A stretch of 64,000 nt of DNA. It comes from Niabella yanshanensis. GTDB taxonomy: Bacteria > Bacteroidota > Bacteroidia > Chitinophagales > Chitinophagaceae. This document shows positions 19,716 to 57,598 of the stretch, piece by piece. The notes under the pieces are model-generated. The model made no database searches. It was not told the origin of the DNA and saw only the letters and a list, made by a program, of their open reading frames with translations. The first letter of the stretch is position 1. Each line of letters opens with the position of its first letter. Made by a program: the position numbers and the translations under genes. The stretch lies in NCBI RefSeq assembly GCF_034424215.1, contig NZ_CP139960.1, forward strand, positions 992,001 through 1,056,000, given 5' to 3'.

Positions 19716-19817
19716 GTCAATCGTTTACATTTCAAAAGTAGCCCGTTAAGAAAGCATTAACAATGTAAGCTTTCACTAAGAAAATGGAAGATTTTACTAT
19801 TCATGTAAACGATTTCA
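19716..19817 (-). promoter_or_regulatory. Composite promoter P3 (SusC2-SusD2-lipoprotein)
   Basis: Direct repeat ATAGTAAAA/TTAGTGAAA with 21-bp period (19771-19800), CATTG (19761-19765), 20 bp, TACTTTTG (19733-19740), which matches the Bacteroidota TAnnTTTG consensus fully. Operator-like palindromes lie on both sides: 19716-19729 (8 of 10) over the start site and 19804-19817 (10 of 10) just upstream of the repeat. The 30-bp repeat differs from that of P2 at only two positions. Confidence 0.8.
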
Positions 19818-26578: not shown

Positions 26579-26672
26579 TTTTGGAAAATATTATCGTGTA
26601 TGCTTTGGTTCTTCTTACCTTGTAGCTTTTTTTCCGGTGGTTTAATAACCCTTATCCGGGCTATTATTCTAC

Positions 26673-41900: not shown

Positions 41901-42567
41901 TAAGTTGCACCGGTCTGAATATCCCCATGGGTTGTGAACCCTCGCTAAAACCGCGTTCGTCACTACAACCACCACATACCCAGGGAAGATCTTTGATAAA
42001 CGGGGGATGCCATGCCCGAACAGCCAGCTGGTTATTGGTACCGTCTGTTTTGATATGATTGGTTACGTCAATGGTAAAAGTAGTCCGCCCTCCTGCATGT
42101 GCCCCAACCTCCTGTCCGTTTAAATAAACCGTTGCATAAGAGCCTACTCCTTCAAAAAAAAGGAAAAAGCGCTTGCCGGCTTTCGACTGTTTCAGTTTAA
42201 CGGTTCTGCGGTACCATGCATCACCATGTTTGTTGCCATGCAGCAAACGGCGATAGCCGTGATAGTCATCCCAATTGTGCGGGACGGTTACCTGCTTCCA
42301 TTTACTATCATCGAACTTAATCTGAAAAGCAGGTGCCAGAGGGCTTTCATCGTTGCCGGCAATTGTACGCCAGTTACTGTTCAAGTCTATTGCGATCCGT
42401 CCAGTCGAAGGTTGCCCGATGGCAGCGCTACCCGATAAAAAAATCAGAACGGTCACCAGCGTTGTCACAGCTGAGACCATTAGTTTGCTTTTGTAAGCCT
42501 TAATCCCGCTTACATCAATGATAGTAAATTCTTTCAATACGTTTTTATTGTTGCTGCAATGATCCAT
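38983..42567 (-). CDS. Exported multidomain GH2 glycosidase with malectin-like domain
   Basis: A product of about 1194 residues, from the ATG at 42567 (MDHCSNNKNVL); ATGs at 42612 and 42480 are also in frame. The hydrophobic signal core is VSAVTTLVTVLIFLSGSAAIGQ (read as two short segments). The GH2 jelly roll, immunoglobulin-like domain and barrel follow. LWGLQNES holds the acid/base and LVGEYGAWR the nucleophile. A malectin-like domain (YRVNSGGADYVDEWGNKW through YELYFVEPWLG-like strands) and C-terminal beta-domains follow. Beta-galactosidase or beta-glucuronidase activity on pectin side chains is likely; the malectin domain probably binds carbohydrate. The start overlaps the GH95 stop by 23 bp, which suggests translational coupling. 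Confidence 0.86.
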   Translation of the reverse strand: MDHCSNNKNVLKEFTIIDVSGIKAYKSKLMVSAVTTLVTVLIFLSGSAAIGQPSTGRIAIDLNSNWRTIAGNDESPLAPAFQIKFDDSKWKQVTVPHNWDDYHGYRRLLHGNKHGDAWYRRTVKLKQSKAGKRFFLFFEGVGSYATVYLNGQEVGAHAGGRTTFTIDVTNHIKTDGTNNQLAVRAWHPPFIKDLPWVCGGCSDERGFSEGSQPMGIFRPVQLIITNDLRIEPFGVHAWATLKGNAAVLNINTLIKNYGAQQKLFTVVHNLVDKKGAIVKTVTEKGSLKANSNLELSTKNIDIKKVNLWSVEDPYLYKIVSVIKEGSREIDRLETDFGFRTVNWKTATNQFYLNGKPVFINGVAEYEHLIGQSHAFSKEQVVARIKWMEAAGFNAFRDGHQPHNLLYGKLFNQKGILWWTQLSAHVWYDTPEFKANFKQLLKEWVIERRNDPSVVLWGLQNESKIPEAFAKECTQLIRDLDPTSASQRLVTTCNGGEGTDWDVPQNWTGTYGGNPDTYGEDLKKQVLVGEYGAWRTLDLHTEGGYKQNAPVSEDRFTQLMEKKLRLAESVKDSVAGHFFWLLTSHDNPGRIQGGEGLRELDRIGPVNYKGMLTPWEEPTDIFYMFRSNYVSAQKEPMVYIASHTWPNRWTKPGLKDSIMVYSNCDEVELFNDLGQVSLGKQKHGGFGTHFIFNKANIQYNVLYAVGYVNGKSVARDTVFLDHLPEAPGVAALRPSGTSLLKPKPGLNYVYRVNSGGADYVDEWGNKWSADRALHPNAANKYWGSSSWTSAFDNMPAFFASQRRTNAAIKGTKDWALFQSFRYGLNQLYYQFPLPNGSYEIELYFVEPWLGVGGSMEAGAMRLFDVAVNGQTVIKDLDIWKEAGANKALKKTVTAKVSNGLLRISFPDTRAGQAIISAIAIASNSRNIKAAPASEMIRELKCNGCVYNAWLDEGDQLFTNQATRVYKLDPALFGADWIRVSRNNSTKLQFVANETIDVYVGVAKENASVLKDFERLSDSIVSDEEGGKKYDVYRKRFETGKTVIIDSKDIGLMGILPATNMQPAYDLKPTTSYKADVAVLNSSVVKQVVAGGERTVVKNNEPAEITWPIATGVADVYSITVKYNSPLEQDVTGTLQLFDVGNNKMVDEAVVFKTTRPGKWNYITINTGGMINAGSYKVKLITRNANGLIVSNIDIQ

Positions 42568-45376
42568 TAAATTGATAGGTTCTGTTTTTTTCTGTTGACA
42601 TATTGACCGCATGATCTTTATAGCGAAGCTGCAAGGGCCGGCCTGCTAAAGATTTGACACTAACCGCCTGCAATACCCCTCTGCTCCATTTTATAGAAAG
42701 TTCAAAACCACCACGGGCTTTTAATCCTTTTACTTCTCCATCGGGCAATGCCGAAGGCAAAGCAGGTAATATATCTATATATCTTGTGTGACTTTGTAAC
42801 AACATTTCTCCAATACCGGCAGCGCCTCCAAAGTTCCCGTCAATCTGGAAGGGCGGATGCGCATCAAACAAATTGGGATAACTTCCCGCACCACCTTTAA
42901 CAGGGCTTAACAACATTTGTATGAGCTTATAAGTGTGATCGCCATCTAAAAAACGCGCCCATAGATTGATCTTCCAGCCCAGACTCCAGCCGGTGGCAGC
43001 GTCTCCCCTGTAAAGTAAAGATTGTCGTGCTGCTTTTATCATATCAGGAGTTTGCTCCCAATTAATTTCACTACCCGGATATACCGCCCATAGATGAGAC
43101 ACATGGCGATGCTTATCGGTTGTATCGTCTACATCCTGCATCCACTCCTGTAACTGGCCATAGCGACCAATAGTGTTCGGAGCGATCTGGCTGTATTGGA
43201 CTTCCAGTTTTTTTCTGAAAGCTTCATCAGTCTTTAAAATAGAGCTGGCTTCAATAGTGCTTTTAAACAAATTGCGGATAATCTGGTGATCCATAGTGGG
43301 ACCAGCAACCAGACCTCCATGCTCGGGCGAATTAGAAGGCGTGCTGATTAAATAACCGGTTTTAGGATCTTTAACCAGGAAGGCGCTAAAGAATTCCGCA
43401 GCGCCTTTCATTAACGGATATGCAGTATCTTTTAAAAACCTGTTATTCTGTGTATATAAATAATGCTGCCATAAATGATCACAGAGCCAGGCACCACCCG
43501 TGATCCAGATACCATGATTAGAAGCGTTGATAGCTGCAGTACCTCTCCATAGATCTGTGTTATGATGTAATACCCATCCTGGTGCGTCGTAATATTGTTT
43601 GGCCGTTTCAGTTCCCGAAACAGAGAGTTCTCGGATCATTTCAAACAAAGGTTGCTGGGTTGCTGATACATTCAAAAGATCAGAAGGCCAGTAATTCATT
43701 TCAGCGTTGATATTGGTAGTATACTTGCTGCCCCAGGGCGGAGAGAGCAGGTCGTTCCATATGCCCTGCAGATTAGCCGGACGTGTGCCCGGACGTGAAC
43801 TACTGATGAGTAGGTAGCGACCGTATTGCAGATACAAGGCCACAAAATCCGGATCATTATTGTTTAATGCAAATTCATTCAGGCGTCGGTCAGTCGTAAG
43901 GGTTGAACGGCTGGCGTTGTTATGGCCCAGGCGGATTGAAAACGTATTGAAATAACTTTGATACTCTTTAACATGCGCATCGTTAACCTGCTGCCAGCTT
44001 TTACTTTTCAGCTTGTTAAGACTGGCCAATGCCAATTGCGAAGGATTGGCGGTCACGTCTTTAAAGTTTCTATAATTAGTATTAGCGCTAAGCCAGGCGG
44101 CAACTTCATCTGCGCCGGTTACAACTATTTTATTTTCCTTAACCAATACCAAGCCGCCTGTTGCACGTATACTTAAATAACTAACACCGTTTAATGCTCC
44201 GTCCTTCACCTTTACTTCAAGACTCACCGTACTGCCATTAACCCTCTTTACGTTGTTTGATTTGTGAGGACTGCTTAGTTCAGCCGTAAAGCTGATGCTC
44301 TTATTCCTGCTGGCGGTGAAATGAACACCCAGCGCCTGGTTGGGGGCACTCACAATATATTCCCTTAAAAAAGTGGTACCTTTGTAGGTATAAGCCGTTG
44401 TTGCTCTGGCATTAGCTATATCTAATGTGCGTCTGTAATCTGCAACTGCTGACTCATCTACATCAAATACAAAATTCAGATCACCAAAGGGCTGGTAAGC
44501 AGCCTGGTACTGACCTACAGCCGGTACATCGGTATCCTGGATAAAATATTTCCATTGACCATTGAGTGACAACTTCTGTGATACAGCTTCATTTACCGGG
44601 TACACGCCGATGTGATTAGACACATCTTTATAGCCCATTACCCCTCCTTTACCGGTAAAATTGATCACTAATATCGCTATGCTATTTTTACCAACTTTAA
44701 GAGCCGAAGCGGGGATTACATAATTGCGTGCATCTGCATTCGCTTGCGACCCCACCAGGACACCGTTAATATAAGTAAAGTCCTGATCTGCTATTTTATT
44801 AATATCAAGTTTCAGGTCTTTACCATTCCATTTTGGAGGTAAATCGAATTGATAACGAAACCATACGGCTCCATCCATTCCCTCAAAACCCTGTGTTTCC
44901 CAGCCCTCATAGTGTGGTACCGCCATTGTTTTCCAGGACGCATCATTATATCCCGGTTGCGAAGGATTGCTTTTCAATTGAAGAATCGCCTGCACTTTTT
45001 TCAGCCATGCATCCCTGTTTCCTTCATTCGATTTAAGGCCCATGAACTCTTTGCCTGCCAGTTCTTCCGCCTGCTTCTGCTTTCCGGCAAACAGCAATCC
45101 CCTTATGGTATCAAGGTATTTATAAGCTCCCTGCTTATTATAATTACGCGGGTAACCCGTCCACAATGTTTCTTCATTAAACTGTACTCTATCGTTTTTT
45201 ATGCCGCCGAATACCATGGCACCTATCCTACCATTACCTATTGGCAATGCTTCAACCCATTTGGTGGCAGGCTTATCATACCATAGTGTCAGGTGATCCT
45301 GGGCATAAATGGTTGTGACGCTCATTGAAAGGGCCAGACCAACAGATAACTTTAAAAAAGATATTTTAGCGGGCAT
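42545..45376 (-). CDS. Exported GH95 alpha-L-fucosidase/alpha-L-galactosidase with an inserted sugar-binding domain
   Basis: A 943-residue protein with a signal peptide (TIYAQ, residue 26). The GH95 N-terminal domain begins with LTLWYDKPATKWVEALPIGNGRIGAMVFGG and the (alpha/alpha)6 barrel shows SSSRPGTRPANLQGIWN, TNINAEMNYWPS, NTDLWRGTA, GRYGQLQEWMQDVDD, HRHVSHLWAVYPG and DGNFGGAAGIGEML. All are hallmark GH95 motifs. Residues about 130-270 (WKTMAVPHYEGWE, GAVWFRYQF, INGVLVGSQ, GKNSIAILVI) look like a GH2-type jelly roll inserted in the N-terminal domain, which explains the excess length over usual GH95 proteins of about 800 residues. Expected role: removal of terminal alpha-L-fucose or alpha-L-galactose from pectin side chains. 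Confidence 0.93.
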   Translation of the reverse strand: MPAKISFLKLSVGLALSMSVTTIYAQDHLTLWYDKPATKWVEALPIGNGRIGAMVFGGIKNDRVQFNEETLWTGYPRNYNKQGAYKYLDTIRGLLFAGKQKQAEELAGKEFMGLKSNEGNRDAWLKKVQAILQLKSNPSQPGYNDASWKTMAVPHYEGWETQGFEGMDGAVWFRYQFDLPPKWNGKDLKLDINKIADQDFTYINGVLVGSQANADARNYVIPASALKVGKNSIAILVINFTGKGGVMGYKDVSNHIGVYPVNEAVSQKLSLNGQWKYFIQDTDVPAVGQYQAAYQPFGDLNFVFDVDESAVADYRRTLDIANARATTAYTYKGTTFLREYIVSAPNQALGVHFTASRNKSISFTAELSSPHKSNNVKRVNGSTVSLEVKVKDGALNGVSYLSIRATGGLVLVKENKIVVTGADEVAAWLSANTNYRNFKDVTANPSQLALASLNKLKSKSWQQVNDAHVKEYQSYFNTFSIRLGHNNASRSTLTTDRRLNEFALNNNDPDFVALYLQYGRYLLISSSRPGTRPANLQGIWNDLLSPPWGSKYTTNINAEMNYWPSDLLNVSATQQPLFEMIRELSVSGTETAKQYYDAPGWVLHHNTDLWRGTAAINASNHGIWITGGAWLCDHLWQHYLYTQNNRFLKDTAYPLMKGAAEFFSAFLVKDPKTGYLISTPSNSPEHGGLVAGPTMDHQIIRNLFKSTIEASSILKTDEAFRKKLEVQYSQIAPNTIGRYGQLQEWMQDVDDTTDKHRHVSHLWAVYPGSEINWEQTPDMIKAARQSLLYRGDAATGWSLGWKINLWARFLDGDHTYKLIQMLLSPVKGGAGSYPNLFDAHPPFQIDGNFGGAAGIGEMLLQSHTRYIDILPALPSALPDGEVKGLKARGGFELSIKWSRGVLQAVSVKSLAGRPLQLRYKDHAVNMSTEKNRTYQFNGSLQQQ

Positions 45377-45385: not shown

Positions 45386-46960
45386 TTAATTACGTTTAAC
45401 TTCTTTTGTGTTTACTTCTTTTCCTACCAGTATCAGCTCATCTGTAAAAATGTTATTTCTTAAATTGATATCCCTGCTGTTGGCACCGGTTATTTCAAGA
45501 TACTTTTTGGTATCATAAAAAGGCCAGCTATTTTGCAGCAACACTCCTTTGGTATTATTCAGTACAATCACAGGCTTATCCTGAAGCGGTTTAGCTGTTT
45601 CAACCCCATTCACTAATAAGCGCTCCACATTATCGGCTTTCAAAGAACTTCCTACAGTAGCATTAACTCTTACATTATGTAATTGAATGTCTTTTGCATT
45701 TCTGATAGTAATACCGCGCTGTGCCTCAAATACTACATCATGCAAGCTAATTTCACTCACCGGCATTTCTTCAATACCATTGATATACATAGCCTCATTG
45801 GTATAAGCAGTGATATTGCTTAAGCGTATGTTACGGAACTTTGGCGTGCGTTCTGTAACGGGCTCGGGAGCAGACTTTCCATATTCCATGTCCATCACAA
45901 TAGCCTGGTCCTTTATATTTTTCATGATGATATTATCAACGCGGATGTCCTCTACCACGCCACCGCGGCCTCTCATTGTTTTAAGTCGTATACCTCTATC
46001 GGTGCCATCAAATACACAGTTGCTGATGGTGATCTTTTTAACATCGCCACTCATTTCACTACCAATCACCACACCGCCATGGCCACTCAACATCGTACAA
46101 TTAGTAATAGAATAGTTTTCTGCAGGTTTAGCCTTAGCCCGGCCTGGTTGATCCTTACCGGATTTGATAGTGATACAATCATCTCCCACACTAATAAAAC
46201 AATCGCTGATACGTACGTTGCTGCAACTCTCCGGATTAATACCGTCGGTGTTAGGCGCCAAACGCTGCGGGTTCAACACCGTTACCGCATGAATCGTTAC
46301 GTTATCGCAAAACTCGGGGTTAATGGTCCAGAAGGGAGAATTGCGGAAAGTAACACCTTGTATCAGGATATTTTTGCTGTGCATAAACTGAACCAGCGGA
46401 GGGCGCAGAAAGCCTCTCTTCATTTGCTTGGGTTCATCAGGTAATAAGATATCCTTATTCAGGCGATCAAATTCGTATTGCCATTTAGACCTGGGTTGAT
46501 CAGCTTTGTATCCCTCTACAAAATCCCACCATTTTTTCCCGTGCCCATCAATAATGCCCCTTCCGGTAATGGCGATGTTCTCTACATTGTTGGCATAAAA
46601 CAACGGGGAAAAGCTGGTTACATCCACCCCTTCGTAGCGACTTTCCACCATGGGCAGGTAATCATCAAAATCATTGCTGAAATGAAGTTCAGCGCCGGCA
46701 TCAACCAAAAGGGTAATATTGCTCTTAAAATGAATTGGGCCGGTAAGATATTTTCCTGCAGGGAAATATACCGTACCACCACCTGCTTTTGCAGCAGCAT
46801 CGATGGCTTTTTTTATTGCCTGTGTGGCTTTGGCGCTGCTATCTTTTTTTGCACCAAACTTTGTAACATCGTAATACTGTTGACCTGATGCGCTAAAACC
46901 AACACAACAAACTATCAAAAACAAAAAATAACGGATTACACCGGGGCAAGACCTCTTCAT
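45386..46960 (-). CDS. Exported GH28 polygalacturonase/rhamnogalacturonase-type hydrolase
   Basis: A 524-residue GH28 enzyme with a signal peptide (SASGQ, about residue 26) and a right-handed beta-helix. All catalytic motifs are present: NTDG (237-240, Asp239), DD (260-261), GHG (293-295) and RLK (325-327, in the RIK position). GH28 enzymes hydrolyse alpha-1,4 galacturonosyl bonds or galacturonosyl-rhamnose bonds; in a locus with GH78 either is possible. It is the first gene of the glycosidase/HTCS operon and is followed by GH95 after 9 bp. A weak promoter candidate that keeps part of the composite promoter layout lies at 47051-47117. Confidence 0.93.
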   Translation of the reverse strand: MKRSCPGVIRYFLFLIVCCVGFSASGQQYYDVTKFGAKKDSSAKATQAIKKAIDAAAKAGGGTVYFPAGKYLTGPIHFKSNITLLVDAGAELHFSNDFDDYLPMVESRYEGVDVTSFSPLFYANNVENIAITGRGIIDGHGKKWWDFVEGYKADQPRSKWQYEFDRLNKDILLPDEPKQMKRGFLRPPLVQFMHSKNILIQGVTFRNSPFWTINPEFCDNVTIHAVTVLNPQRLAPNTDGINPESCSNVRISDCFISVGDDCITIKSGKDQPGRAKAKPAENYSITNCTMLSGHGGVVIGSEMSGDVKKITISNCVFDGTDRGIRLKTMRGRGGVVEDIRVDNIIMKNIKDQAIVMDMEYGKSAPEPVTERTPKFRNIRLSNITAYTNEAMYINGIEEMPVSEISLHDVVFEAQRGITIRNAKDIQLHNVRVNATVGSSLKADNVERLLVNGVETAKPLQDKPVIVLNNTKGVLLQNSWPFYDTKKYLEITGANSRDINLRNNIFTDELILVGKEVNTKEVKRN

Positions 46961-47833: not shown

Positions 47834-50560
47834 TTACTCAAATAGCCAGTCTACCTGCTTCCTGTTGCCGCTTTCATACAAACCAGCGTCGTAGATACGT
47901 AAAGGTGGTTCTCCATCTACAAAACCCAGTATCAATGCTACGCCTTTCGCCAGCTTCAGTGTGTTAGTACCCGGTTTAAATTCATAGTTATGTATATGCA
48001 ATTGAGGCATTCCCGGTATGATCATGGCGTTTGCAATTTTTGTATCTGCCTGCCCGTACTCGTTTGCCGTGGCATTGGTTTCCAGCTCTGGTTGCTTCAG
48101 GTAAGTGGTATCCACCGTAAATGCGGCTTTCTGTGGTTTTAAGAAACCTACCAATACCTTTACCGGACGATCATTGGTAAAAGTTATTTGAGTTCCCTTT
48201 TCTATTTGCTGTTTAAAAGATGTCTTCAGCCCCTTTAGTCCTTTTAGCTCACCGGCAAAAGATCTGATAGCAAAGCTGGTATCTGTAAAAGGTTGAGCCA
48301 GGCTATCGATTGTGTAATAATAACCTGCTGTTGCTAATTGAACCTTAGCATTTCTTAATGAAGCCACGTACTGCGCTGCGCCAGGCTTTACCTGTTTCAA
48401 TGAATCAATTTTATGTTGAAATACAGTCAATTCTTTTTCGAAAACAGGTAATACATCGTACCAGTTCTTATACTTTCCTCCCTGCCCGGTTAAAGGAATT
48501 TTCCTGGCACCCGTCTGCATACTGTTGGCATAGAGGTAACTACCTTTCGTTAATTCAGTAAGCGCTTTGTACCATTTCACACTTTCTTTGAGAAGGGGTA
48601 AAGCTTTATCCAGATCCTTTATATCGTTGGAATATTTATAACGCAATACCTGTAAAGCTGCTTCAGCTTTAAAAGCAAAATGATAAGCCATCGCCCTATA
48701 GCTATAAGCATCCTTTTTTAAGCGCTCAAATTCTGCTTTATCTTTCTTTACCAGCTTTACTGCATCGATGGCGGCTACGGCTTTATCTCCATGCGCTTTA
48801 ACGTCGTTGATAATTTTAACGGGCGTTTCCCCTGTATGTTGTTTGCCGTTCCACTCTTTATCGGCATATTCGGCTAATGATTCGCCTTCCGGGCTTTCCG
48901 CTTCATACAACAGGGTAAAAAGGCCGAAACGATAAGGGTTGATTAATTGCGTCATCAACATACCGAGGTTCAGCGTTTGCCGGTTGCCATCTGTAATTCC
49001 AAAGCGTCTTAGGAGCTTCGGCGATATCTCCCCCATTTCTTCGTAGGCTTTCAGAATATTGCCTCCATCCGACTCAGATACGCCAAATTGGTCAGCCAGG
49101 TTTCGATTCCAATAAATAATTTCCGCAGAGCGGTCTCTCTTCGCTTTCCAGGCATAACGGCTCCAGGCTTTGTACCAAAGCCAGTCTCTCTCAATCTGCA
49201 ATAGTCTTGCCCCACCCTTTACACTATCAGCGGCATAAGGCCAGTCCCAATAAGAAGCCTGCGGGTATAAATGAAGACCATTGCCCCCCATCACTTCGTG
49301 CATGCCAATTACCGAACGTTGAATAAAATCAGCCGAACCATAACGGAATGGTTCCAGGTTGGCCAGGATATGCACGTTCTCTATCTGTACCGAGCCCAGT
49401 TTGCTTAGCTTTTGATGCAACTCAGCCCAGGCGCCACGTGGCCGGTCATAAGTAAGCGCTTCTCCATTAAACTTAGCTTCCGTATATAAGTTTTTATACA
49501 ACGGCAGTGCGGCATCCATTACTGCAGGTGCGTCAGTATCGTGAGCACGCAATACAATTGGTGGTTCTTCCGTTTTACCCAATGCTTTTAAGCCATCTTT
49601 TACACCCGGGATGATCGTCTTCGTAAACCAATTGATATCATCTTGTCCAACACCTTCCATGGCTTCACCTAAACACACCATCAATCCTACATTCGGATAT
49701 TTCTCTACGAAAGCTGCGATAGATTTTTGTGTATAATCTGCAATAACAGGTATAATGGGTCTTTCCCTCTCCTGTGTTTTAATACCATGTTTCTCAGCAA
49801 AAGGTTTAGATACGATGATATTATAAAACATCTGAATTACCCAGATACCTCTTTTATCTGCTTCGGTAGTAAGGAAACGAAAAATGTCTTCGTTTTTTTT
49901 AAAAGTCACATCATCAACCTCAACAGCATAGGGATAATCTTTTAATTTAACCAATGATGCAAAAGGATGGCCATTCCAGAGATAGAGCGAGTTCATCCGG
50001 TTGCTGACCATTGAATCCAGCACCTGTATCCACAGTTTTTTATCATATAGCCAGGGAAAGGTTTGCGGTGTATAAGGATACTCGTAAACGGTGCGCCCGG
50101 GCAAGTAGTAAGGCTTTTGCAGCCCGATACATTCACCACGCAATACCATTTCCGGCGCATCCTGCAGGTTAACAGATGCCGGTAACTTTTTCAATTCAGC
50201 GGATTGTTCGGCCAGCTCTAAGCAGCCATATAATAAACCTGAAGCGTCAGCTCCCGATATACGGGTTATTTTTTTTGAAGACTGAATGTAAAAACCTTCT
50301 TTTTTGAGATTGCTATTGAAGTTCCCCTCAATGATGATCAGCTTTTGGTTAGCCGGATTATTTTTACCGGTGGTTGTTACAACGGACACCATGTACCCGA
50401 TTTTCTGCAATTTGCTTTTTAACAACTCCACTCCATATACAACCCTTTGCTGCTTCGGAAGCGGATTCACTATTATCACTTTTTCTACAGCCGCTGCTAA
50501 AGCGGTATTGGTCCAGATAACAAATACCAATAATCCTATTATTCTGTTCATTCGACTCAT
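47834..50560 (-). CDS. Exported TIM-barrel uronidase-like glycosidase (possibly GH138 alpha-galacturonidase)
   Basis: A 908-residue protein with a signal peptide (ALAAAV, about residue 23). Residues about 25-130 form a GH20b/GH67-type N-terminal alpha/beta domain (KLIIIEGNFNSN, GLLYGCLELAEQ). A barrel then begins with MVLRGECIGLQKPYYLPGR. Candidate catalytic acids are Glu299 in VCLGEAMEG and Glu361 or Glu367 in TEAKFNGEA. The C-terminal third is helical, then beta-rich. This layout matches alpha-uronidase-like families. I lean to GH138 (alpha-galacturonidase of RG-II/RG-I breakdown) because the pair of acids has similar spacing, but this is from memory. It is the only exported enzyme of the operon that otherwise codes for cytoplasmic proteins. 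Its start is 12 bp from the Gfo/Idh gene. Confidence 0.6.
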   Translation of the reverse strand: MSRMNRIIGLLVFVIWTNTALAAAVEKVIIVNPLPKQQRVVYGVELLKSKLQKIGYMVSVVTTTGKNNPANQKLIIIEGNFNSNLKKEGFYIQSSKKITRISGADASGLLYGCLELAEQSAELKKLPASVNLQDAPEMVLRGECIGLQKPYYLPGRTVYEYPYTPQTFPWLYDKKLWIQVLDSMVSNRMNSLYLWNGHPFASLVKLKDYPYAVEVDDVTFKKNEDIFRFLTTEADKRGIWVIQMFYNIIVSKPFAEKHGIKTQERERPIIPVIADYTQKSIAAFVEKYPNVGLMVCLGEAMEGVGQDDINWFTKTIIPGVKDGLKALGKTEEPPIVLRAHDTDAPAVMDAALPLYKNLYTEAKFNGEALTYDRPRGAWAELHQKLSKLGSVQIENVHILANLEPFRYGSADFIQRSVIGMHEVMGGNGLHLYPQASYWDWPYAADSVKGGARLLQIERDWLWYKAWSRYAWKAKRDRSAEIIYWNRNLADQFGVSESDGGNILKAYEEMGEISPKLLRRFGITDGNRQTLNLGMLMTQLINPYRFGLFTLLYEAESPEGESLAEYADKEWNGKQHTGETPVKIINDVKAHGDKAVAAIDAVKLVKKDKAEFERLKKDAYSYRAMAYHFAFKAEAALQVLRYKYSNDIKDLDKALPLLKESVKWYKALTELTKGSYLYANSMQTGARKIPLTGQGGKYKNWYDVLPVFEKELTVFQHKIDSLKQVKPGAAQYVASLRNAKVQLATAGYYYTIDSLAQPFTDTSFAIRSFAGELKGLKGLKTSFKQQIEKGTQITFTNDRPVKVLVGFLKPQKAAFTVDTTYLKQPELETNATANEYGQADTKIANAMIIPGMPQLHIHNYEFKPGTNTLKLAKGVALILGFVDGEPPLRIYDAGLYESGNRKQVDWLFE

Positions 50561-50572
50561 TCGTTATTATGT

Positions 50573-51628
50573 TCAAAAAAAATCATCTGTTATTACTCCG
50601 CCTTTCTTATTGCTGGTATAAGCTGCTTCAACGCAAATCATGGTTTCCAGGGCGTCATCAATACTGTTCTCAGGTTGATCAATAATACCTGCTTTTGCCA
50701 GCTGCATCTGCTGCATCGTTCCTATAAAAGCATGTGGGAACCAGGTTCCATCTATTGCTTTTGCCTGCCATTGTGCCTTCGTCCCTTCCTCAACAACGAT
50801 ATATTCAAAACTATCCGGCACTCCATGGGGATAATTGATCAGGGCGCCAAAGGTTATTTTAATCGCACCTTTCGTCCCTTCAATTTTTACATAGGACTCT
50901 TGTTTTTGATAACTGAAATTGTGGTTGTGGTTCGTATGAATAACAGCGCGCACCATATCACCGTAGTCCATTATAATATTAGACTTTACAGAAGCCAGTT
51001 GCGTTGCTTCAGGATGCTTAAAGGTTCTGGCATATACTTTAGAGGGGGTGCCTAAGAATGAGCGGATCAGATCGACATAATGGATGCTATGGTAATTAAT
51101 TTCCATTCTTTCTTTTGAAAACAGGAACTCCCACAAGTTCCAGGGTGTATGCACATTTACATATACCTCCAGGTCTGTTATGGTTCCTATTTTTCCATCA
51201 GCAATTATTTTCCTGGCTTCCAGTATATAAGGTGCAAAACGCATCTGGAAATTAACCCCTGCCAGTAATTGCTTCTTTTTAGCAATAGCATGAATGGCTT
51301 TAGCTTCTTCGAGACTTTCTCCGTAGGGTTTCTGAATCAATATCGTTGCACCATCAGGCAGTTGCTTTAATACCGGTATAATCTCTGACGCAGGCAATGC
51401 AAAATCATAGATAGCATTGGTACCATGTGCTGCCACCATCTCTTCCAGGCTATCATAAACTTTTTCAATGCCAAATTTTTCAGCCAGGGATATTGCTTTC
51501 TGTTTATTCCGGTTCACAATGCCTGCAACCTCAAACCCGGCTATCCGGTAAGCGGGCAAATGAGCATCAGCTACTATACCGCCGGCTCCAATAATACAAA
51601 CAGGCGCGGCCTCATTATTATTTGTCAT
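50573..51628 (-). CDS. Gfo/Idh/MocA-family NAD(P)-dependent sugar oxidoreductase
   Basis: A 351-residue cytoplasmic protein with an N-terminal Rossmann fold (VCIIGAGGIVADAHLPAY) and the family's C-terminal alpha/beta domain. The usual EKP motif is QKP (IQKPYGESLEEA), a tolerated variant. NYHSIHYVDLIRSFLG carries the conserved active-site histidine region. Such enzymes oxidise or reduce sugars, inositols or sugar acids, or act through redox-linked elimination. It lies 1 bp after the RhaT stop and 12 bp before the uronidase-like gene. An oxidative step on rhamnose, galacturonate or a derivative is likely. The exact substrate cannot be read from the sequence. Confidence 0.85.
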   Translation of the reverse strand: MTNNNEAAPVCIIGAGGIVADAHLPAYRIAGFEVAGIVNRNKQKAISLAEKFGIEKVYDSLEEMVAAHGTNAIYDFALPASEIIPVLKQLPDGATILIQKPYGESLEEAKAIHAIAKKKQLLAGVNFQMRFAPYILEARKIIADGKIGTITDLEVYVNVHTPWNLWEFLFSKERMEINYHSIHYVDLIRSFLGTPSKVYARTFKHPEATQLASVKSNIIMDYGDMVRAVIHTNHNHNFSYQKQESYVKIEGTKGAIKITFGALINYPHGVPDSFEYIVVEEGTKAQWQAKAIDGTWFPHAFIGTMQQMQLAKAGIIDQPENSIDDALETMICVEAAYTSNKKGGVITDDFF

Positions 51629-51629
51629 A

Positions 51630-52658
51630 TCAGGTTCCTCCCAGGTAATTACCGTAAGTGAGTACCACTACGGCTAATAAAAGAATAAATAATGCAAATC
51701 CCAATGCACGACGCGTTATAACTCTGGTAGCTTTCCACTCCTTCAAAATAACACCTACCAATGAGCTAAAAAACACCAGCATGATCATATGTATAGCCCA
51801 GCTGGAAAACTCATATTTTCCGAGCCGCACATGTCCCAATCCGTAAAAGAAAAATTGCCCGTACCAGAGCATACCCGTAATCAAAGCCATCAGATAATTG
51901 ATCCCAAGACCACCAGCTTGTCCGTTCGACGCATATTCAGATAAGGTTTTATTTTTAAGATGTAACCACAATGTATATACCAGCGTTGTTACAAATGCGC
52001 CCGTATTGGAGAACAGGTATACTACATTTACCTGGAAATCGCCGGCGCCATAATTGGCTGCAATATCTGATATTGGTTTACCCGCATTGATCGCAAAGCC
52101 ATAAAATGCAGATAATACTCCGGCTAACAGACATAACGGCAGCCCTTTTTTAAAAGAAAAACCTGACTGATTTTGCGAAACATCTTTTTCTTTTAATCGC
52201 CCGGCTACTCCACAAAATGCAATTCCGGCAGCACCTAAGATTACACCTGTTAAAATCCATTGCCCTCCCGTTCCGCTCAATGCTTCACCTAATGTACCCG
52301 CCAGCATGGGAGGAACCAGGGTTCCTAAAACGCAGGAGATCCCTACCGATATGGCATAAGTCAGAGAGAAACCGATATGTTTGATAGCCATACCAAAAGC
52401 TGTTCCACCGACACCGTAAGCCATTCCCAGCAGGAAAGAATTACGCATCGCTTCTCCCGGTGCTTCTGATAACACTTTACCTAAAGAGGGGATGGTGAGC
52501 CAGGCCACCAGGATCGGCAACAATAACCAACAAACCGACGCCTGGGCCAGCCAATAAGTTTGCCAGCTCCAGCCCTTAACCTCTTTTTCGGGAGTATAGC
52601 ATAAGGATGCTGAAGCAGCTCCAACTCCATGAAAAAATATACCGCCGAATAATTGCAT
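51630..52658 (-). CDS. rhaT: L-rhamnose/proton symporter RhaT-family inner-membrane transporter
   Basis: The 342-residue polytopic protein has the length and ten-helix pattern of E. coli RhaT (344 residues). Sequence features of the RhaT family (PF06379) include GIFFHGVGAASASLCYTP near the N-terminus, KGWSWQTYWLAQ, LLGMAYGVGGTAFGMAIKHIG, SLTYAISVGISCVLGTLVPP and a C-terminal half starting with LPLCLLAGVLSAFYGFAINAG. It should import L-rhamnose (or a related deoxysugar) from the periplasm, where GH78 releases it. It lies 34 bp after the amidohydrolase gene in the P4 operon. No rhaA, rhaB or rhaD gene occurs in the window. Confidence 0.9.
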   Translation of the reverse strand: MQLFGGIFFHGVGAASASLCYTPEKEVKGWSWQTYWLAQASVCWLLLPILVAWLTIPSLGKVLSEAPGEAMRNSFLLGMAYGVGGTAFGMAIKHIGFSLTYAISVGISCVLGTLVPPMLAGTLGEALSGTGGQWILTGVILGAAGIAFCGVAGRLKEKDVSQNQSGFSFKKGLPLCLLAGVLSAFYGFAINAGKPISDIAANYGAGDFQVNVVYLFSNTGAFVTTLVYTLWLHLKNKTLSEYASNGQAGGLGINYLMALITGMLWYGQFFFYGLGHVRLGKYEFSSWAIHMIMLVFFSSLVGVILKEWKATRVITRRALGFALFILLLAVVVLTYGNYLGGT

Positions 52659-52692
52659 ATCTGAGGCTAATTTGTAGAACCGAAGCTCTCGT

Positions 52693-53544
52693 TTAAAGGT
52701 TAAGATTATAAAACGCTATCGCATTTTCACTGAATATCCTGTTTCTGGTGTGCTCATCTGATACAAGATCTTCAATTACCTGTTGATAAACCGTCCAGGT
52801 ATGAACATAGGAGCCCCCTAGTATTGATACCGGCCAGTCACCTCCGAGGAAACAACGATCGGAGCCAAATTCAGCCAATATAAAATCAACATAAGGTTTA
52901 ATGTTTTCGGCTGTGAAGTTTTCTTTTCCTGCAGTAGTGCCCATGCCCGATATTTTAGCATAAAACTGTGGATGTGCCGCCGCTATCTTCATTAACTTCC
53001 CCCATTCCCCAAATTTTTCCCCGGACTGTATGGGCGGCTGATTAAGATGGTCGAATACCATCCTGAGCCCCGGAACTTTCTCTGCAACTTGGAGGGCTGT
53101 TTGAATATGGGTTGTTTTCACCCCTACTACATCATAAGGTAGCTGGCGTGCCGACAATAACTTTAAGCTTTCAATAACTGCATCCTGCAATAACCATCGA
53201 TCATCAGGCTCATCATGAATTAAGTGCCTCACCCCTTTAAAATATTTTTCTTCTGATAACACAGATTGCAGCAATTGCTCCGTCTTCGGGGGATTTAAAA
53301 GCGGCAACCAGCCCACGATACCTTTTATCCAATCATGCTGTTCCGCGGCCTCTATCATCAATGCTGTATCGTCTAAAGTATTGTCTGCCTGTACTATTAT
53401 TCCGGCATCTACCGAAGCAGTCAGGCGCAGGTCTTCAAGATCTTCGAGATTATAATTTTTATGGAGTACATCCGGGGCGGCTTTCAACCAATCATAGGCA
53501 GATCGTTCCAGATTCCAGATATGTACATGCGTATCGATTATCAT
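52693..53544 (-). CDS. Amidohydrolase-family sugar lactonase-like protein (COG3618)
   Basis: A 283-residue cytoplasmic TIM-barrel metal hydrolase. Motifs seen are DTHVHIW at the N-terminus, GVRHLIHDEPD, MVFDHLNQPPI, YAKISGMGT and FLGGDWPVS near the C-terminus. These are typical of the group that includes L-fuconolactonase, L-rhamnono-lactonase and 2-pyrone-4,6-dicarboxylate lactonase. A lactonase for an aldonolactone made from imported rhamnose or a similar sugar would fit its place between RhaT and the CoA-transferases. It sits 39 bp after the CoA-transferase gene and 34 bp before rhaT. Decarboxylase activity, also known in this superfamily, cannot be excluded. Confidence 0.82.
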   Translation of the reverse strand: MIIDTHVHIWNLERSAYDWLKAAPDVLHKNYNLEDLEDLRLTASVDAGIIVQADNTLDDTALMIEAAEQHDWIKGIVGWLPLLNPPKTEQLLQSVLSEEKYFKGVRHLIHDEPDDRWLLQDAVIESLKLLSARQLPYDVVGVKTTHIQTALQVAEKVPGLRMVFDHLNQPPIQSGEKFGEWGKLMKIAAAHPQFYAKISGMGTTAGKENFTAENIKPYVDFILAEFGSDRCFLGGDWPVSILGGSYVHTWTVYQQVIEDLVSDEHTRNRIFSENAIAFYNLNL

Positions 53545-53583
53545 AATGGACGTTCAATCATATCGATACCAAGCTATTATAGC

Positions 53584-54756
53584 CTATTTGGCATCAATAA
53601 TTTCGGGCTTTACCCCGACTTCAAATTTAAGATCAATTTCGTTATTATGTTCTCCCAAACCCGGGGCGCCTATATGGCCCGAAAGATGCTGACCATCTAT
53701 TGTGATGGGCGACCTCGTCGTTTTTATGGAAATCCCGTTGGTTGTTTTCACCACCACTTCCATATTTAATACCTGGTACCCTTCTTCCTTTGTCAACTGC
53801 TCATAATCAAATACCCTGGAACACCAGATACCTGCCGGTTCGAGACAATCTAACCAATAAGACGTCGTATTGTTCAGAAGATGGCGCGCTAATACTGATT
53901 TTATTTCATCTCTTTTACCGAACCAATCCTTTTTGTCGGTGTAACCGGCTAATTCAACACATCCCGTCAACGCTCCGAGCTCTATAATGTCTGCCATAGC
54001 CAGGGCTATATAATCATCATTGGTTTTATAAATACCATAAGGTGCTGCAACATAGGCATGCCCGCTATTAACAGCGCTACGCGCCGGCAGCTGTCCCCCG
54101 TCATTGTAGTAGCAGGTTAATACCTCGAACTGGAAATCCAGTGCACTTTCCAGCATACTTACCTCTATGCTTCCGCCCTCACCTGTAACTGCCTTTTGAT
54201 ACAAAAGAGATAATATGCCCTGAGCCAGATGTGCGCCCGCTAGCATATCTACTACAGAAACACCCATCGGGGTAGGGTTAGCATTGCTGCTATTATTTAG
54301 CCATGCGAGCCCCGAAACAGATTGTAACAACAAATCCTGTCCTGGCAATTTTCTCCACTCTCCTTCATCTCCATAACCAGTTATACTGGCATAAATCACC
54401 GAAGGATTTATTTCTTTCACGCTCTCATAATCAAACCCCAGCCGTTCCATAACACCGGGACGAAAATTATGCATCACTACATCAGCCTTTTTGATCAGTT
54501 CTATAATCCTGATTACGTCATCAGGGCTTTTCAAATCGGCTGTATAACTTTTTTTATTGCGATTGATAGCATGAAATATAGACGACTCTCCATCAATCAC
54601 CACATCAGAAACATACAGCTCCCTGCAAATGTCCCCGGTACCGGGCTTTTCAATCTTTATGACTTCAGCGCCAAAATCTGCCAGGCATAAAGATGCCGAG
54701 GGACCAGACAAAAACTGGCTGAAGTCAATAACCAATATATCCTGTAGCAGTTTCAT
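53584..54756 (-). CDS. CaiB/BaiF family III CoA-transferase, subunit 2
   Basis: A 390-residue cytoplasmic protein. Family III motifs: IDFSQFLSGPSASLCLADFGAEVIKIEKPG (as adjacent motifs), NFRPGVMERLG, SITGYGDEGEW and PGQDLLLQSVSGL with the catalytic Asp141. These enzymes move CoA between carboxylic acids through acyl-aspartate intermediates. It lies 3 bp downstream of a second CaiB homologue with Asp142 conserved. Paired CaiB genes often encode heteromeric enzymes such as the succinyl-CoA:malate/citramalate or benzylsuccinate transferases. With a MaoC hydratase in the same operon, activation and hydration of an unsaturated or hydroxy acid is a reasonable reading. Substrate unknown. Confidence 0.88.
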   Translation of the reverse strand: MKLLQDILVIDFSQFLSGPSASLCLADFGAEVIKIEKPGTGDICRELYVSDVVIDGESSIFHAINRNKKSYTADLKSPDDVIRIIELIKKADVVMHNFRPGVMERLGFDYESVKEINPSVIYASITGYGDEGEWRKLPGQDLLLQSVSGLAWLNNSSNANPTPMGVSVVDMLAGAHLAQGILSLLYQKAVTGEGGSIEVSMLESALDFQFEVLTCYYNDGGQLPARSAVNSGHAYVAAPYGIYKTNDDYIALAMADIIELGALTGCVELAGYTDKKDWFGKRDEIKSVLARHLLNNTTSYWLDCLEPAGIWCSRVFDYEQLTKEEGYQVLNMEVVVKTTNGISIKTTRSPITIDGQHLSGHIGAPGLGEHNNEIDLKFEVGVKPEIIDAK

Positions 54757-54759
54757 GAT

Positions 54760-55896
54760 TTACAAAAGTTCTTCCTTTATTTTTTGTGTATGCTGTCCTA
54801 ATAACGGAGCCGGCTTGTCTGAAAATAAACGTTCGCCGTTAATCCTTATAGGACAACGCGTAGTCAAATACGCTTCCCTCCCGTTTATTGACACTGTATT
54901 CTCCATTTGTACACTCTTGTAGAGGTCCGTTTTTCGCAATACATTCCAGTCGTTCACTTCAGATGCCCACAATCCGGCGTCTTTCAAACGATCCAGCCAG
55001 TAAGCATTATTTTGAGTAAGTAATTTTTCGGAAATGATAGCCTTTATTTCATCCCGCTTTGCAAAAACATCCGCCTGTGTGTATCGCGCCAGTTCTTCTA
55101 TAGCCAGCGCTTTTGTTAATTCGGGAATGTTCATCATTGCCAACGCAATATGCCCTTCTGCCGTTTTGTAAATACCATAGGGTGCTCCCAACAAAGGGTT
55201 CCCGTTACTAACGGCGCTTCTTTTAATACCGGCTTTACTATGATAATGTGTAGTAAACAGCTCAAACTGCAGACTGATCGCGGATTCCAGCAAGCTCAGC
55301 TCAACATACGCGCCCATACCGGTTTTCTGTCGCCTGATCAAAGCAGCTAATATACCCTGCACCGTGTGAATGCCGCAAATGCTATCAACAATAGACAGGC
55401 CGAAGGGCATGGGGCCATCGCCATCATCCCCTGTTGTGTAAGCAAGGCCTGAAAGAGATTGCAGCAGCAAATCCTGTCCTGGTTTATTTTTCCAGGGTCC
55501 CTTCCTGCCGTAGCCCGTTATCTCGGCATATACGATACGCTTGTTTATTTTTTGAACATCAGTATAAGCAAGCCCGATTTTCTCCATTACCCCGGGCCTG
55601 AAATTATGGGTGATCACATCCGCTTTCCCGATCAGCTTTTTTACCAATTCAAGATCAGCCGGATTTTTCAGATCTGCAGTAAAACTTTCTTTATTGCGAT
55701 TGATCGCATGGAAGTTTAAAGCATCCTCCCCTACCCAAAGATTTTTTATGGATAGTTTCCTGCACGGATCACCACCACCCGGTCGCTCTATTTTAATTAC
55801 CCGCGCACCCAGATCAGCCAAACGCAAACCTGCCGATGGTCCGGACAGGTACTGGCTAAACTCCAAAACAATTAAACCTTTTAAGGGTAGAAACAT
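54760..55896 (-). CDS. CaiB/BaiF family III CoA-transferase, subunit 1
   Basis: A 378-residue family III CoA-transferase homologous to the next gene (53584-54756). Motifs are LEFSQYLSGPSAGLRLADLGARVIKIERPG (as adjacent motifs), NFRPGVMEKIG, ITGYGRKGPWKNKPGQDLLLQ with Asp142 as the catalytic nucleophile, and GAPYGIYKTAEGHIALAM. Both paralogues keep the aspartate, so neither looks like an inactive partner. Its ATG overlaps the stop codon of the solute-binding-protein gene by one base (55896), a strong sign of translational coupling. An alpha2beta2-type CoA-transferase is inferred. The acyl substrate is not known. Confidence 0.88.
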   Translation of the reverse strand: MFLPLKGLIVLEFSQYLSGPSAGLRLADLGARVIKIERPGGGDPCRKLSIKNLWVGEDALNFHAINRNKESFTADLKNPADLELVKKLIGKADVITHNFRPGVMEKIGLAYTDVQKINKRIVYAEITGYGRKGPWKNKPGQDLLLQSLSGLAYTTGDDGDGPMPFGLSIVDSICGIHTVQGILAALIRRQKTGMGAYVELSLLESAISLQFELFTTHYHSKAGIKRSAVSNGNPLLGAPYGIYKTAEGHIALAMMNIPELTKALAIEELARYTQADVFAKRDEIKAIISEKLLTQNNAYWLDRLKDAGLWASEVNDWNVLRKTDLYKSVQMENTVSINGREAYLTTRCPIRINGERLFSDKPAPLLGQHTQKIKEELL

Positions 55897-57065
55897 CAGG
55901 CAAATACTTTTGATAAATTTTTCTCTAAAGACGTTATATACATTTCGTTAAGCTTTGCTAAAACAGCTTCAGCATTATTTTGCTTTCCCGACATAAATTC
56001 CTGTATATACAGCCCGGCTTCATCCTGGAAATGAAGATATCCGTGATAACGGGGGCGTAAATATCCATTCTCCATCACCGGTAATACGTTCCTGAAAAAG
56101 TTATTGGTCAGTTCATTATTCCGGTCATTCTTCCAGGCGGCCAAATAACCAGGCTGTCCTTCATTCAGGGTATAACCGTTGGTTTGAAATTGTGGAGAGC
56201 AAACCATCTCAGCAAAAGCTACAGCTTCCTGTTTGTGTTTCGAAAAGTTAGACACAGATAACCCTGTACCACCTATAGTCGTCCTTAATTTTTCACCATT
56301 ATAGTCGACCACATCGGTATAATGTAATAAACTCTTTGCGTAACCTTCACGCGAGTAGTTGGTATATCCATAAGCAAAAGGGCAATACCAGTAATCATCG
56401 GTTGCGGACATTGCTTCGGCTACCCGAATCGGGTTCTTACTAAACATGCTACGGTCTATCAGCGAGTATAATTCATACATCGTATTTAGTGCAGCTATGC
56501 CGGTTGCAGTATCAATCACTTCTTCTGTTGTAGCAAAAGGAGTCTTCCCCTGTGCGATGCAAAAGGTATAGAAATTCATCAACAGGTCTATGGGGATTGC
56601 AGGAACGGCTACCTTTCCCTGTTTTGCTAAAGCAACTACTTCCTGCCAGGTTTGTGGCGCTGGTACACCAGCTGCATCAAAAAGATCTTTACGGTAACTG
56701 GCAGCAGGAGTGGCAGCATCTATAGCTAATGCCCATTGATGACCTCCATAAAAATAACTGGGATGGGATGCGCCCACACTATTTTCTGCCTGATCCTGTA
56801 AATAGGCTTCAGGCAAATACGCGTCTAAAGCCAATACACAGCCGGTAGCTGCTGCAGTTCCCACCCAGGGATGATCAATGATCAACAGATCATATTCCTC
56901 TGTCAGTTTCTCTATGGGAAAATCTGCAAACTGCTGAAGGCTCCGTTTATGCCATTGCACCTCAACACCGGGATGTAATTCGGTAAACCGTTGAGATGCC
57001 GCCTGCAAAGGCGTTATCCCCCTGCTATGATTCCAGGTAATTCCTTTTAAAACAATATCAGCCAT
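55896..57065 (-). CDS. Solute-binding-protein family 1 homologue lacking a signal peptide
   Basis: A 389-residue protein that reads as a full bilobal periplasmic-binding-protein fold of family 1: [22 protein letters not shown] (as strand and helix), [46 protein letters not shown] (hinge region) and [23 protein letters not shown]. It starts directly with the first strand ([13 protein letters not shown]) and has no hydrophobic or lipobox segment. No in-frame extension is possible before the overlapping MaoC gene (8-bp overlap). No ABC permease or ATPase is present. Overlaps of 8 bp upstream and 1 bp downstream tie it to cytoplasmic enzymes. It may act inside the cell as a ligand carrier, enzyme subunit or sensor; this is inference. 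Confidence 0.82.
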
Positions 57066-57507
57066 TCACTTCCTTTTTTTCAACCAATAATAAATGCTCA
57101 CAAACCATCACTAACTCATCGTTTTGATTGAATACTTCCAACGCCTCGGACACAATACCATAGCCAGGCTTCTTGTGATCTCTTTTATCTTTTATGACTA
57201 CTTTTGCTTTGATGGTATCGTTAATAAAAACGGGACGAATAAACCGAAGCTTTTCATAACCATAAGTCATAGCCACTTCATTAATTAAGCCAGCAGATAA
57301 ACCTACGCCTATACTGAAAATTAAAGTTCCATGGGCAATCCGCCTTTTAAAAGGTTGTGTTTTACACCATTCTTCATCCATGTGATGGGGGTAAAAATCT
57401 CCTGACTGGCCGGCATGCAACACTATATCTGCATCGGTAATGGTTCTGCCTGTAGTGGATCTGGAATCTCCTAATACAAATTCCTCATAATATATTTTAA
57501 CGCTCAT
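57058..57507 (-). CDS. MaoC-type hot-dog (R)-specific enoyl-CoA hydratase/dehydratase
   Basis: A 149-residue single hot-dog domain. The R-hydratase signature is present: [25 protein letters not shown] (given here as GDFYPHH plus RRIAHG), with the catalytic Asp and His. The C-terminal strands [20 protein letters not shown] and [12 protein letters not shown] complete the fold. Such enzymes add or remove water on acyl-CoA thioesters, for example mesaconyl-CoA or crotonyl-CoA. It is the first gene of the CoA operon. The start codon is about 23 bp from the promoter -7 element (57531-57538). It overlaps the solute-binding-protein gene by 8 bp. Confidence 0.88.
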
Positions 57508-57509: not shown

Positions 57510-57598
57510 TGCAAGCCTTTTATCGCTGATCGAAAATAGATCAAGGCCTGAGGTTAAAAAATGGGTTGTTTGACTAATATGATGGAAGATTTTCCTAG
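57510..57598 (-). promoter_or_regulatory. Composite promoter P4 (MaoC/CoA-transferase/RhaT operon)
   Basis: Direct repeat CTAGGAAAA/TTAGTCAAA with the same 21-bp period (57569-57598) and the same internal ATCTTCCAT as P3; then CATTT at the -33 position (57559-57563), 20 bp, TATTTTCG as -7 (57531-57538), and a weaker operator-like palindrome (57510-57523, 7 of 10) next to the start codon. The spacing equals that of P1-P3. It is the only visible promoter for the eight-gene operon and lies between divergent genes. Confidence 0.68.

Follow-up and report, generated by a model that had tools for sequence, protein, structure and literature searches.

The window analysed here is a 64,000-nucleotide stretch of the Niabella yanshanensis genome (contig NZ_CP139960.1, positions 992,001 to 1,056,000 of the forward strand; coordinates below are those of the window), and the subject is a run of eight genes on its - strand in which acyl-CoA enzymes stand together with a sugar importer. 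A preliminary description, made from the sequence alone, regarded this run as an undescribed-looking module inside a pectin regulon; no description of it was found in the open-licence literature, nor anything relevant there on a CoA-transferase/MaoC sugar module or on methyl-sugar catabolism. All eight open reading frames (ORFs) lie in the tight array in which they had been placed, with intergenic gaps of -8 to 39 bp. The core of this array is a conserved module linked to rhamnogalacturonan II (RG-II), and it appears to be catabolic, with 2-O-methyl-L-fucose as the best candidate substrate and elimination on a CoA thioester as the best candidate chemistry, judged from sequence. Read from the promoter, and assigned by Pfam and NCBIfam profile matches, the genes are:

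57058..57507, - strand: MaoC-type hydratase (PF01575, 1e-23), proposed (de)hydratase of a sugar-acyl-CoA
55896..57065, - strand: signal-less protein of the solute-binding protein (SBP) fold (PF01547, SBP_bac_1, 4e-19)
54760..55896, - strand: family III CoA-transferase A, CoAT_A (CoA_transf_3, PF02515, 9.6e-96)
53584..54756, - strand: family III CoA-transferase B, CoAT_B (CoA_transf_3, PF02515, 5.5e-92)
52693..53544, - strand: Amidohydro_2 lactonase, L-fucono-lactonase-like, Lact1 (PF04909, 9.4e-36)
51630..52658, - strand: RhaT-family sugar/proton symporter (PF06379, 4.3e-56)
50573..51628, - strand: Gfo/Idh/MocA dehydrogenase (PF01408, 4.7e-13), proposed 1-dehydrogenase of a sugar
47834..50560, - strand: GH138 alpha-D-galacturonidase with an export-type N-terminus, a partner gene (NF049878)

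Conservation was followed in two sets, i.e., an even, not phylogenetically independent sample of 147 genomes of the family, and the best 80 SBP loci of at least 512 relatives. Both CoA-transferases, which are the sole CoA_transf_3 matches in the 5.54-Mb genome, combine the family III fold with its catalytic Asp: Asp171 of CoAT_A is invariant in 73 of 73 aligned sequences (66 distinct by the last 120 residues), and Asp170 of CoAT_B in all 111 aligned sequences labelled CoAT_B (104 distinct by the same measure). The MaoC protein carries the GDxxPxH catalytic motif as GD..PHH.D, with Asp37 and His42 retained in 91/91 aligned sequences (84 distinct), the Lys of the Gfo/Idh QKP motif is retained in 87/87, and among the lactonase relatives HxH is found in 64/64 and the Asp in 63/64. 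These residues, catalytic in their families, were counted among MaoC relatives of at least 50% identity and Gfo/Idh and lactonase relatives of at least 38%, and each count holds about seven repeats because seven of the 80 wider loci are also seven of the 21 family loci described below. Curated families are matched less closely. The CoA-transferases come nearest to those of oxalate, glutarate and mesaconate transferases without reaching a cut-off; the MaoC protein comes closest to the hydratase end of PaaZ (98 bits, cut-off 562.8), with 4ffu as its closest solved chain (2.9e-52); Lact1 stays under the equivalog cut-off of L-fucono-1,5-lactonase NF052480 (149.1 vs 400 bits), the symporter under all five RhaT NCBIfam cut-offs (best 291 vs 468 bits), and Gfo/Idh has no close solved relative (best E 4.9e-11). 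The eighth protein, of family GH138, matches NF049878 over its full length (1418.7 bits, cut-off 1300) and the solved BPa0997 (6hzf) at 5.7e-294. A metal-dependent sugar-acid dehydratase was found neither among the eight genes nor among ten scanned neighbours.

The SBP has a confidently predicted MalE-like fold (AlphaFold2 pLDDT 92.4), and its model retrieves maltose/trehalose-type SBPs in Foldseek at a TM-score of about 0.8. As had been described, it lacks an export signal by the measure used: the highest 10-residue Kyte–Doolittle mean within its first 35 residues is 1.22, i.e., no strongly hydrophobic stretch, compared with 3.10 for GH138, in a test that is only rough because Gfo/Idh scores 2.50. 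Among 97 SBPs of the family, N-terminal hydrophobicity, measured from 12 residues before the GITW motif, is at most 1.79. The array includes neither a permease nor an ATPase, so that the SBP has neither the export signal nor the partners of an ABC importer, and it may instead serve in binding, escort, regulation or catalysis.

SBP matches occur in 24 of the 147 family genomes, and those with at least 48% identity, 22 including N. yanshanensis itself, are called module genomes here. In all 21 others, MaoC, CoAT_A, CoAT_B and Gfo/Idh lie near the SBP, accompanied by the lactonase in 19, RhaT in 14 and GH138 in 14. Among the best 80 loci, 71 have a CoA-transferase (two genes in 70), and of these 71, 68 have MaoC and 64 Gfo/Idh. 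A strong SBP match (E < 1e-160) is found in 16 of 296 genomes of a wider phylum sample, and owners of the module include Chitinophagaceae, Flavobacterium, Pedobacter, Mucilaginibacter and Pontibacter, as well as Cohnella, Ammoniphilus, a metagenome-assembled genome of Bryobacteraceae and Microbulbifer. The preliminary description had held that absence from related pectin loci would speak against the module; the survey found the cluster present. Of its eight genes, the galacturonidase, found at 22 of the 80 wider loci, is a partner rather than part of the core. The conserved module consists of MaoC, the signal-less SBP, the paired CoA-transferases, the lactonase or a second SBP, Gfo/Idh and a RhaT- or FucP-type importer.

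Within this core, several parts vary. The importer in the 80 loci is only RhaT-like in 34, only of the MFS cluster in 22, both in 6 and neither in 18; the sole MFS member scanned scores above the TIGR00885 fucP cut-off (365 vs 280 bits) and under that of PRK10133. A second signal-less SBP (SBP2, cluster c7; Pfam SBP_bac_1) occurs in 23 loci and the lactonase in 44, never together, with neither in 13. This mutual exclusion made SBP2 a candidate stand-in for the lactonase; however, the pattern follows clades, and since there are only two changes on the SBP tree, the swap amounts to little more than one event. Any relationship between the two SBPs is distant at best (20% over 103 residues, E 2e-4). 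In one locus (L034, 10552-12903), CoAT_A and CoAT_B are fused into a single 783-aa ORF, hinting at a heteromer. In Microbulbifer (L123), a crotonase takes the place of MaoC, and among more distant SBPs the partners are a CoA-transferase and a crotonase, in L051 and, next to a MaoC set, in L112; two unrelated hydratase folds in like places suggest that what matters in the system is a hydratase/dehydratase step on a CoA ester. In Labrenzia and Roseateles XES5, as annotated, a CoA-transferase and SBP adjoin an ABC sugar importer, mutarotase, Gfo/Idh, MaoC, SDR and L-fuconate dehydratase, with an FAH gene in addition in Labrenzia, and in S. meliloti a CoA-transferase/SBP pair lies about 12 kb from like-named fucose-type genes, with insertion sequence (IS) elements between. 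In L061, L062, L065, L068 and L071, near-identical SBP relatives occur with no CoA-transferase in the available DNA; in L062, genes for RraA, an SSF transporter, a UxuA-like protein and a PhyH-family protein are among the neighbours.

RG-II carries 2-O-methyl-L-fucose, and GH139 is the only known releaser of this sugar according to the portion of PMC12282258 available; DUF5703, which adjoins the module in several loci, matches GH139 structures 9HYQ and 9HMB deposited with that work. We called GH139 at a DUF5703_N score of at least 280 bits, a threshold set after seeing the list. At this threshold GH139 is present in 21 of the 22 module genomes vs 6 of the 125 others (p 4e-19), and at Pfam's own cut-off in 21/22 vs 20/125 (p 3.5e-13), by Fisher tests, which ignore shared descent. 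Two other genes are weaker trackers of the module, namely an FAH relative counted at E <= 1e-85 (20/22 vs 63/125, p 3e-4) and the L-rhamnose enzyme RhaEW (22/22 vs 48/125, p 1e-8), and among the 64 genomes that have both of these, GH139 is found in 20/20 with the module vs 6/44 without (p 1e-11). When genomes of the same genus are compared, module and GH139 change together in g1, g5, g8, g34 and g65, disagree in g7 and g25, and give an ambiguous result in g30.

The two are also often close on the map. Where a genome has both (21 cases), a single contig carries SBP and GH139 in 19; the distance between them is at most 10 kb in 6, 20 kb in 7 and 100 kb in 16. N. yanshanensis has its GH139 at about 470 kb, near GH106 and 0.58 Mb from the module. 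Pontibacter, Botryobacter and Rufibacter (L108, L117, L164) have GH139 directly upstream of the module, and L092 and L100 have it between CoAT_B and a second MaoC. None of 60 FAH loci read, 19 of them from module genomes, holds GH139. One of the six GH139 genomes outside the module set (G077), which gives no SBP match, has CoAT_A-CoAT_B-Lact1-Gfo/Idh-MaoC beside GH106, about 7 kb from GH139; counted as a module genome, it brings the association to 22/23 vs 5/124. The SBP, which had been listed as a part of the module, is therefore a usual but not an indispensable one. The run of CoAT_A-CoAT_B-lactonase-Gfo/Idh-MaoC without SBP in L290 (14458-19278) lies among BNR, GH78 and DUF6298 relatives of the window.

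The locus around the array itself looks like an RG-II locus. Further carbohydrate-active enzymes of the window are:

35165..36259, - strand: N-terminal part of a BT0996-type RG-II enzyme, GH137-like (NF049877 positions 5-358, 495 bits)
36262..38964, - strand: GH78 alpha-L-rhamnosidase family (profile scan)
38983..42612, - strand: GH2 and malectin part of a BT0996-type RG-II enzyme (NF049877 positions 364-1400, 1410 bits)
42545..45376, - strand: GH95, alpha-L-fucosidase/galactosidase family (PF22124, 1.2e-171)
45386..46960, - strand: GH28 polygalacturonase-family enzyme (profile scan)

Both NF049877 matches are below the whole-enzyme cut-off of 1800 bits, and the protein at 35165..36259 is GH130-like by Pfam. 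The two-part enzyme is thus laid out here as two separate genes (35165-36259 and 38983-42612) with GH78 in between. GH138 and this split BT0996-like enzyme in the window, together with DUF5703/GH139 elsewhere in the genome, give the locus its RG-II character. The RG-II loci of Bacteroides thetaiotaomicron include GH137, GH138, GH139 and other enzymes, and the present locus resembles them in its GH138, its BT0996-like parts, its SusC/SusD genes and its hybrid two-component regulator (HTCS).

The preliminary description had also noted an activator site common to the module promoter and the importers, and this is borne out. The 16-base site TAGKAAAATCTTCCAT, allowing at most two mismatches, occurs three times in the window, always on the - strand, where 0.12 are expected, and 0 of 100 shuffles reach three. 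The sites found by this pattern search, and the regulator gene, are:

57582..57597, - strand: operator in the module promoter, upstream of MaoC
19784..19799, - strand: operator upstream of SusC 16352-19474
13336..13351, - strand: operator upstream of the 12604-13263 and SusC 9218-12562 genes, with one mismatch
26995..31440, - strand: hybrid two-component regulator, HTCS (Pfam)

The first two of these sites supplied the pattern, which leaves the third (13336-13351) as the only independent match. By eye, each site extends into a second, similar half 21 bp further, which has the shape of a dimeric AraC-type site, and the HTCS is the obvious candidate activator. The same search found no such site in the SusC upstream region at 26253-26994.

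Genes for the common pectin sugars stand elsewhere in the genome. A galacturonate run at 2.31 Mb (L189) contains UxaC, tagaturonate reductase (UxaB) and KduI above cut-offs, as well as two UxaA-like, a KdgK-like and a KdgA-like gene below theirs, and with these isomerase-pathway genes in place galacturonate was rejected as the substrate. L-rhamnose was favoured as long as the absence of RhaA was considered, which was not found in this genome and is present in only 1 of 147 family genomes; this candidate was weakened, in a search that covered RhaA and RhaEW of the L-rhamnose route, by RhaEW, which scores 974 bits here and lies above cut-off in every module genome. For free L-fucose, only lower-pathway genes were located, the upper L-fucose dehydrogenase not being sought; a lactonase-FAH-SDR group of the lower L-fucose/L-rhamnose type (L185) has an FAH protein at 358 bits vs 500 for NF053535, a lactonase below cut-off at 267 bits for NF052480, and an SDR with a generic match only. 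Since galacturonate, L-rhamnose and lower L-fucose genes are present elsewhere, the module is probably for something else, and 2-O-methyl-L-fuconate is the likely acid. Elsewhere, L-fucose genes lie close to it: an L-fucose cassette adjoins the module in L037, with L-fucose dehydrogenase and one of two fucP models above cut-offs, and similar genes are near it in Flavobacterium.

A role of the module as a replacement for L-fuconate dehydratase was considered as well. A FucD-like enolase was not found in the N. yanshanensis genome (best 5.5e-18); however, such enolases are rare anyway (4/22 module vs 12/125 other genomes at E <= 1e-90), and the 60 FAH loci read, drawn from 83 FAH genomes, contain a UxaA-like gene without UxaB in 12 and with UxaB in 7, so the absence of FucD proves nothing and the replacement is undercut. 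The UxaA-like genes without UxaB stand among L-fucose-type genes in L193, L195, L198, L199, L213, L220, L221, L226, L227, L232, L236 and L242, and they may encode the L-fuconate dehydratase of these bacteria.

Taken together, the conserved module, its shared operator, a locus of RG-II type and the association with GH139 support the earlier suggestion that a CoA-activated acid from a pectin sugar or its substituent may be handled here. We tentatively favour, at a little under an even chance, a catabolic operon for 2-O-methyl-L-fucose (or a close O-methyl 6-deoxyhexose) freed from RG-II and degraded via a CoA thioester. Starting from the genes observed, their catalytic-type residues and the associations above, we infer the substrate from gene association and the CoA steps from family chemistry; the individual reactions and their order, the way in which methanol is lost and the SBP's role are all proposals. 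The sugar would be taken up by the RhaT-like importer (FucP-type or ABC elsewhere), oxidized at C1 to the lactone by Gfo/Idh, and opened by the amidohydrolase to 2-O-methyl-L-fuconate, onto which the paired CoA-transferases would load CoA. MaoC could then eliminate at C2–C3 using the C2 proton acidified by the thioester, as in the CaiB/CaiD carnitine cycle, giving the enol ether of 2-keto-3-deoxy-L-fuconate, with loss of methanol and passage of CoA to the next acid. The methanol might be lost spontaneously, through the second MaoC present in some loci, or through the SBP, for which an accessory role is favoured because G077 has the module without it. The keto acid would enter the ordinary lower L-fucose pathway (SDR and FAH hydrolase) to pyruvate and lactate. 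The use of CoA would be explicable if the usual dehydratase needs a free 2-OH.

The gene set thus probably lets soil bacteria consume the 2-O-methyl-fucose of RG-II, as far as its gene content tells. The hydrolase for this sugar is known, and the portion of PMC12282258 available does not state the intracellular fate of the sugar. With a gene set that tracks the 2-O-methyl-fucosidase, this fate becomes testable by single deletions. If the proposal is true, acyl-CoA chemistry joins sugar catabolism in an unusual way of sugar breakdown, signal-less sugar-binding proteins gain a job, and candidate marker genes for O-methyl deoxyhexose turnover in soil become available. We consider doubtful a more specific proposal: that an ether-bound sugar methyl is removed without oxygen or a methyltransferase, the CoA thioester undergoing C2–C3 elimination by MaoC to an enol ether that yields methanol and 2-keto-3-deoxyfuconate, with MalE-like proteins stripped of their export signal acting as sugar-acid carriers or as the enol-ether-cleaving enzyme. 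If true, the MaoC and crotonase versions in Bacteroidota, Bacillota, Acidobacteriota and Pseudomonadota would represent a general CoA-based way of breaking ethers in sugar acids.

Several observations weigh against the 2-O-methyl-L-fucose assignment. Its weakest links are two: GH139, which was counted genome-wide where GH137 and GH138 were not, may follow the module simply as another trait of RG-II degraders, and demethoxylation has no clear catalyst, because hydration at C2 of a 2-methoxy-enoyl-CoA opposes normal conjugate addition and is not ordinary MaoC chemistry. The GH139 in L092 and L100 belongs to a divergent subfamily nearer 9hmb, and SDT91673.1 is reported, in the portion of PMC12282258 available, which does not state its PDB code, to be without detectable activity. 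GH139 is present in five sampled genomes that give no SBP match, and the DNA read around it (only 4.8 kb in G135 and about 20 kb in G109) contains no module gene, CoA-transferases elsewhere in these genomes not being sought; in three of the five (L281, L282, L284), GH139 is beside a zinc alcohol dehydrogenase that is also found with L-fucose genes, and therefore another route for 2-O-methyl-fucose may exist. Conversely, module genome G025 is without GH139, the alphaproteobacterial loci read show none next to the module, GH139 matches 2 records of a plasmid collection vs 170 for the SBP, and at 9 of the 80 SBP loci, some of them on short contigs, the available DNA contains no CoA-transferase. 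In the control Bacteroides ihuae, DUF5703 is found without any CoA_transf_3 match, which also sets the module apart from the Bacteroides RG-II loci.

The same association could arise if the module degraded another RG-II-specific sugar, i.e., aceric acid, 2-O-methyl-D-xylose or apiose, since GH139 would co-occur with any RG-II-specific function. The RG-II-type locus and the GH137-like or GH138 gene in 28 of 80 loci would suit this, and aceric acid, a deoxy, carboxylated sugar, is directly CoA-activatable. We nevertheless regard it as unlikely: the L-fucose-type operons in which Labrenzia and Roseateles XES5 carry CoA-transferase, SBP, Gfo/Idh and MaoC have no RG-II enzymes next to them, the mutarotase, fuconolactonase-like lactonase and FucP/RhaT importers suit a 6-deoxyhexose, and in L092 and L100 GH139 stands inside the gene run. 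The sugar could instead be an unmodified 6-deoxyhexose, L-rhamnose or L-fucose, with a CoA-cycled aldonate dehydratase replacing the enolase-, IlvD- or UxaA-type enzymes. While the fucose cassettes beside the module (Flavobacterium, L037) showed no recognisable dehydratase, and neither RhaA nor a FucD-like enolase was found in N. yanshanensis, this reading leaves GH139 unexplained, and it appears quite improbable given RhaEW in all module genomes, the L-fucose operons of many genomes that lack the module (with the UxaA-like genes without UxaB in 12 of 60 FAH loci), and the L-fuconate dehydratase that Labrenzia retains in the same operon.

Family III CoA-transferases accept many small acids, and the CoA-transferases and MaoC might act on a small by-product, such as lactate or acetate from ester groups, while being merely co-regulated with sugar import. 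Their nearest curated families, although below cut-off, act on such acids as oxalate, glutarate and mesaconate, and in Ammoniphilus (L112) the CoA genes have an acyl-CoA-ligase-like neighbour. However, the tight operon with lactonase and dehydrogenase recurs across many genera, and no thiolase, ligase or lyase that could use such a CoA ester is among the eight genes, which makes a by-product very improbable. As for a fortuitous or loose grouping of unrelated genes, for which only the mixed enzyme types could be cited, the conserved neighbourhoods (21/21 family loci, most of the 80 wider ones and the CoAT_A-CoAT_B fusion) already refute it and leave it next to no probability.

Among known systems, the carnitine cycle of CaiB and CaiD activates an acid with CoA, dehydrates it and passes the CoA on, and the module is like it in pairing family III CoA-transferases with an enoyl-CoA hydratase-type enzyme. 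Unlike that cycle, it has a sugar-acid setting, MaoC rather than a crotonase (crotonase-family genes occurring in L051, L112 and L123), two CoA-transferases, an SBP, a lactonase and a dehydrogenase. With the oxidative diketo-hydrolase pathway of L-fucose and L-rhamnose it shares a dehydrogenase, a COG3618-type lactonase and an importer, and lower genes of that pathway adjoin it in L037, Flavobacterium and Labrenzia; in contrast, Gfo/Idh stands for the SDR dehydrogenase, and CoA-transferases and MaoC for the metal-dependent dehydratase. The SBP shares the fold of the MalE-type proteins of ABC importers, from which it differs in its N-terminus and in the lack of a permease or ATPase gene beside it. 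According to the portion of PMC10033563 available, 6-O-methyl-D-galactose is demethylated oxidatively to formaldehyde by a P450 and an alcohol dehydrogenase. This system likewise deals with an O-methyl sugar, but the eight genes give no P450 match.

Two minor observations concern individual loci. A reading of the Microbulbifer locus as one for 3,6-anhydrogalactose was considered and proved unsupported, the family matches being generic. In Mucilaginibacter (L131, 8050-9357), a RuBisCO-like protein follows the module, and members of the same cluster occur in L129 and L093.

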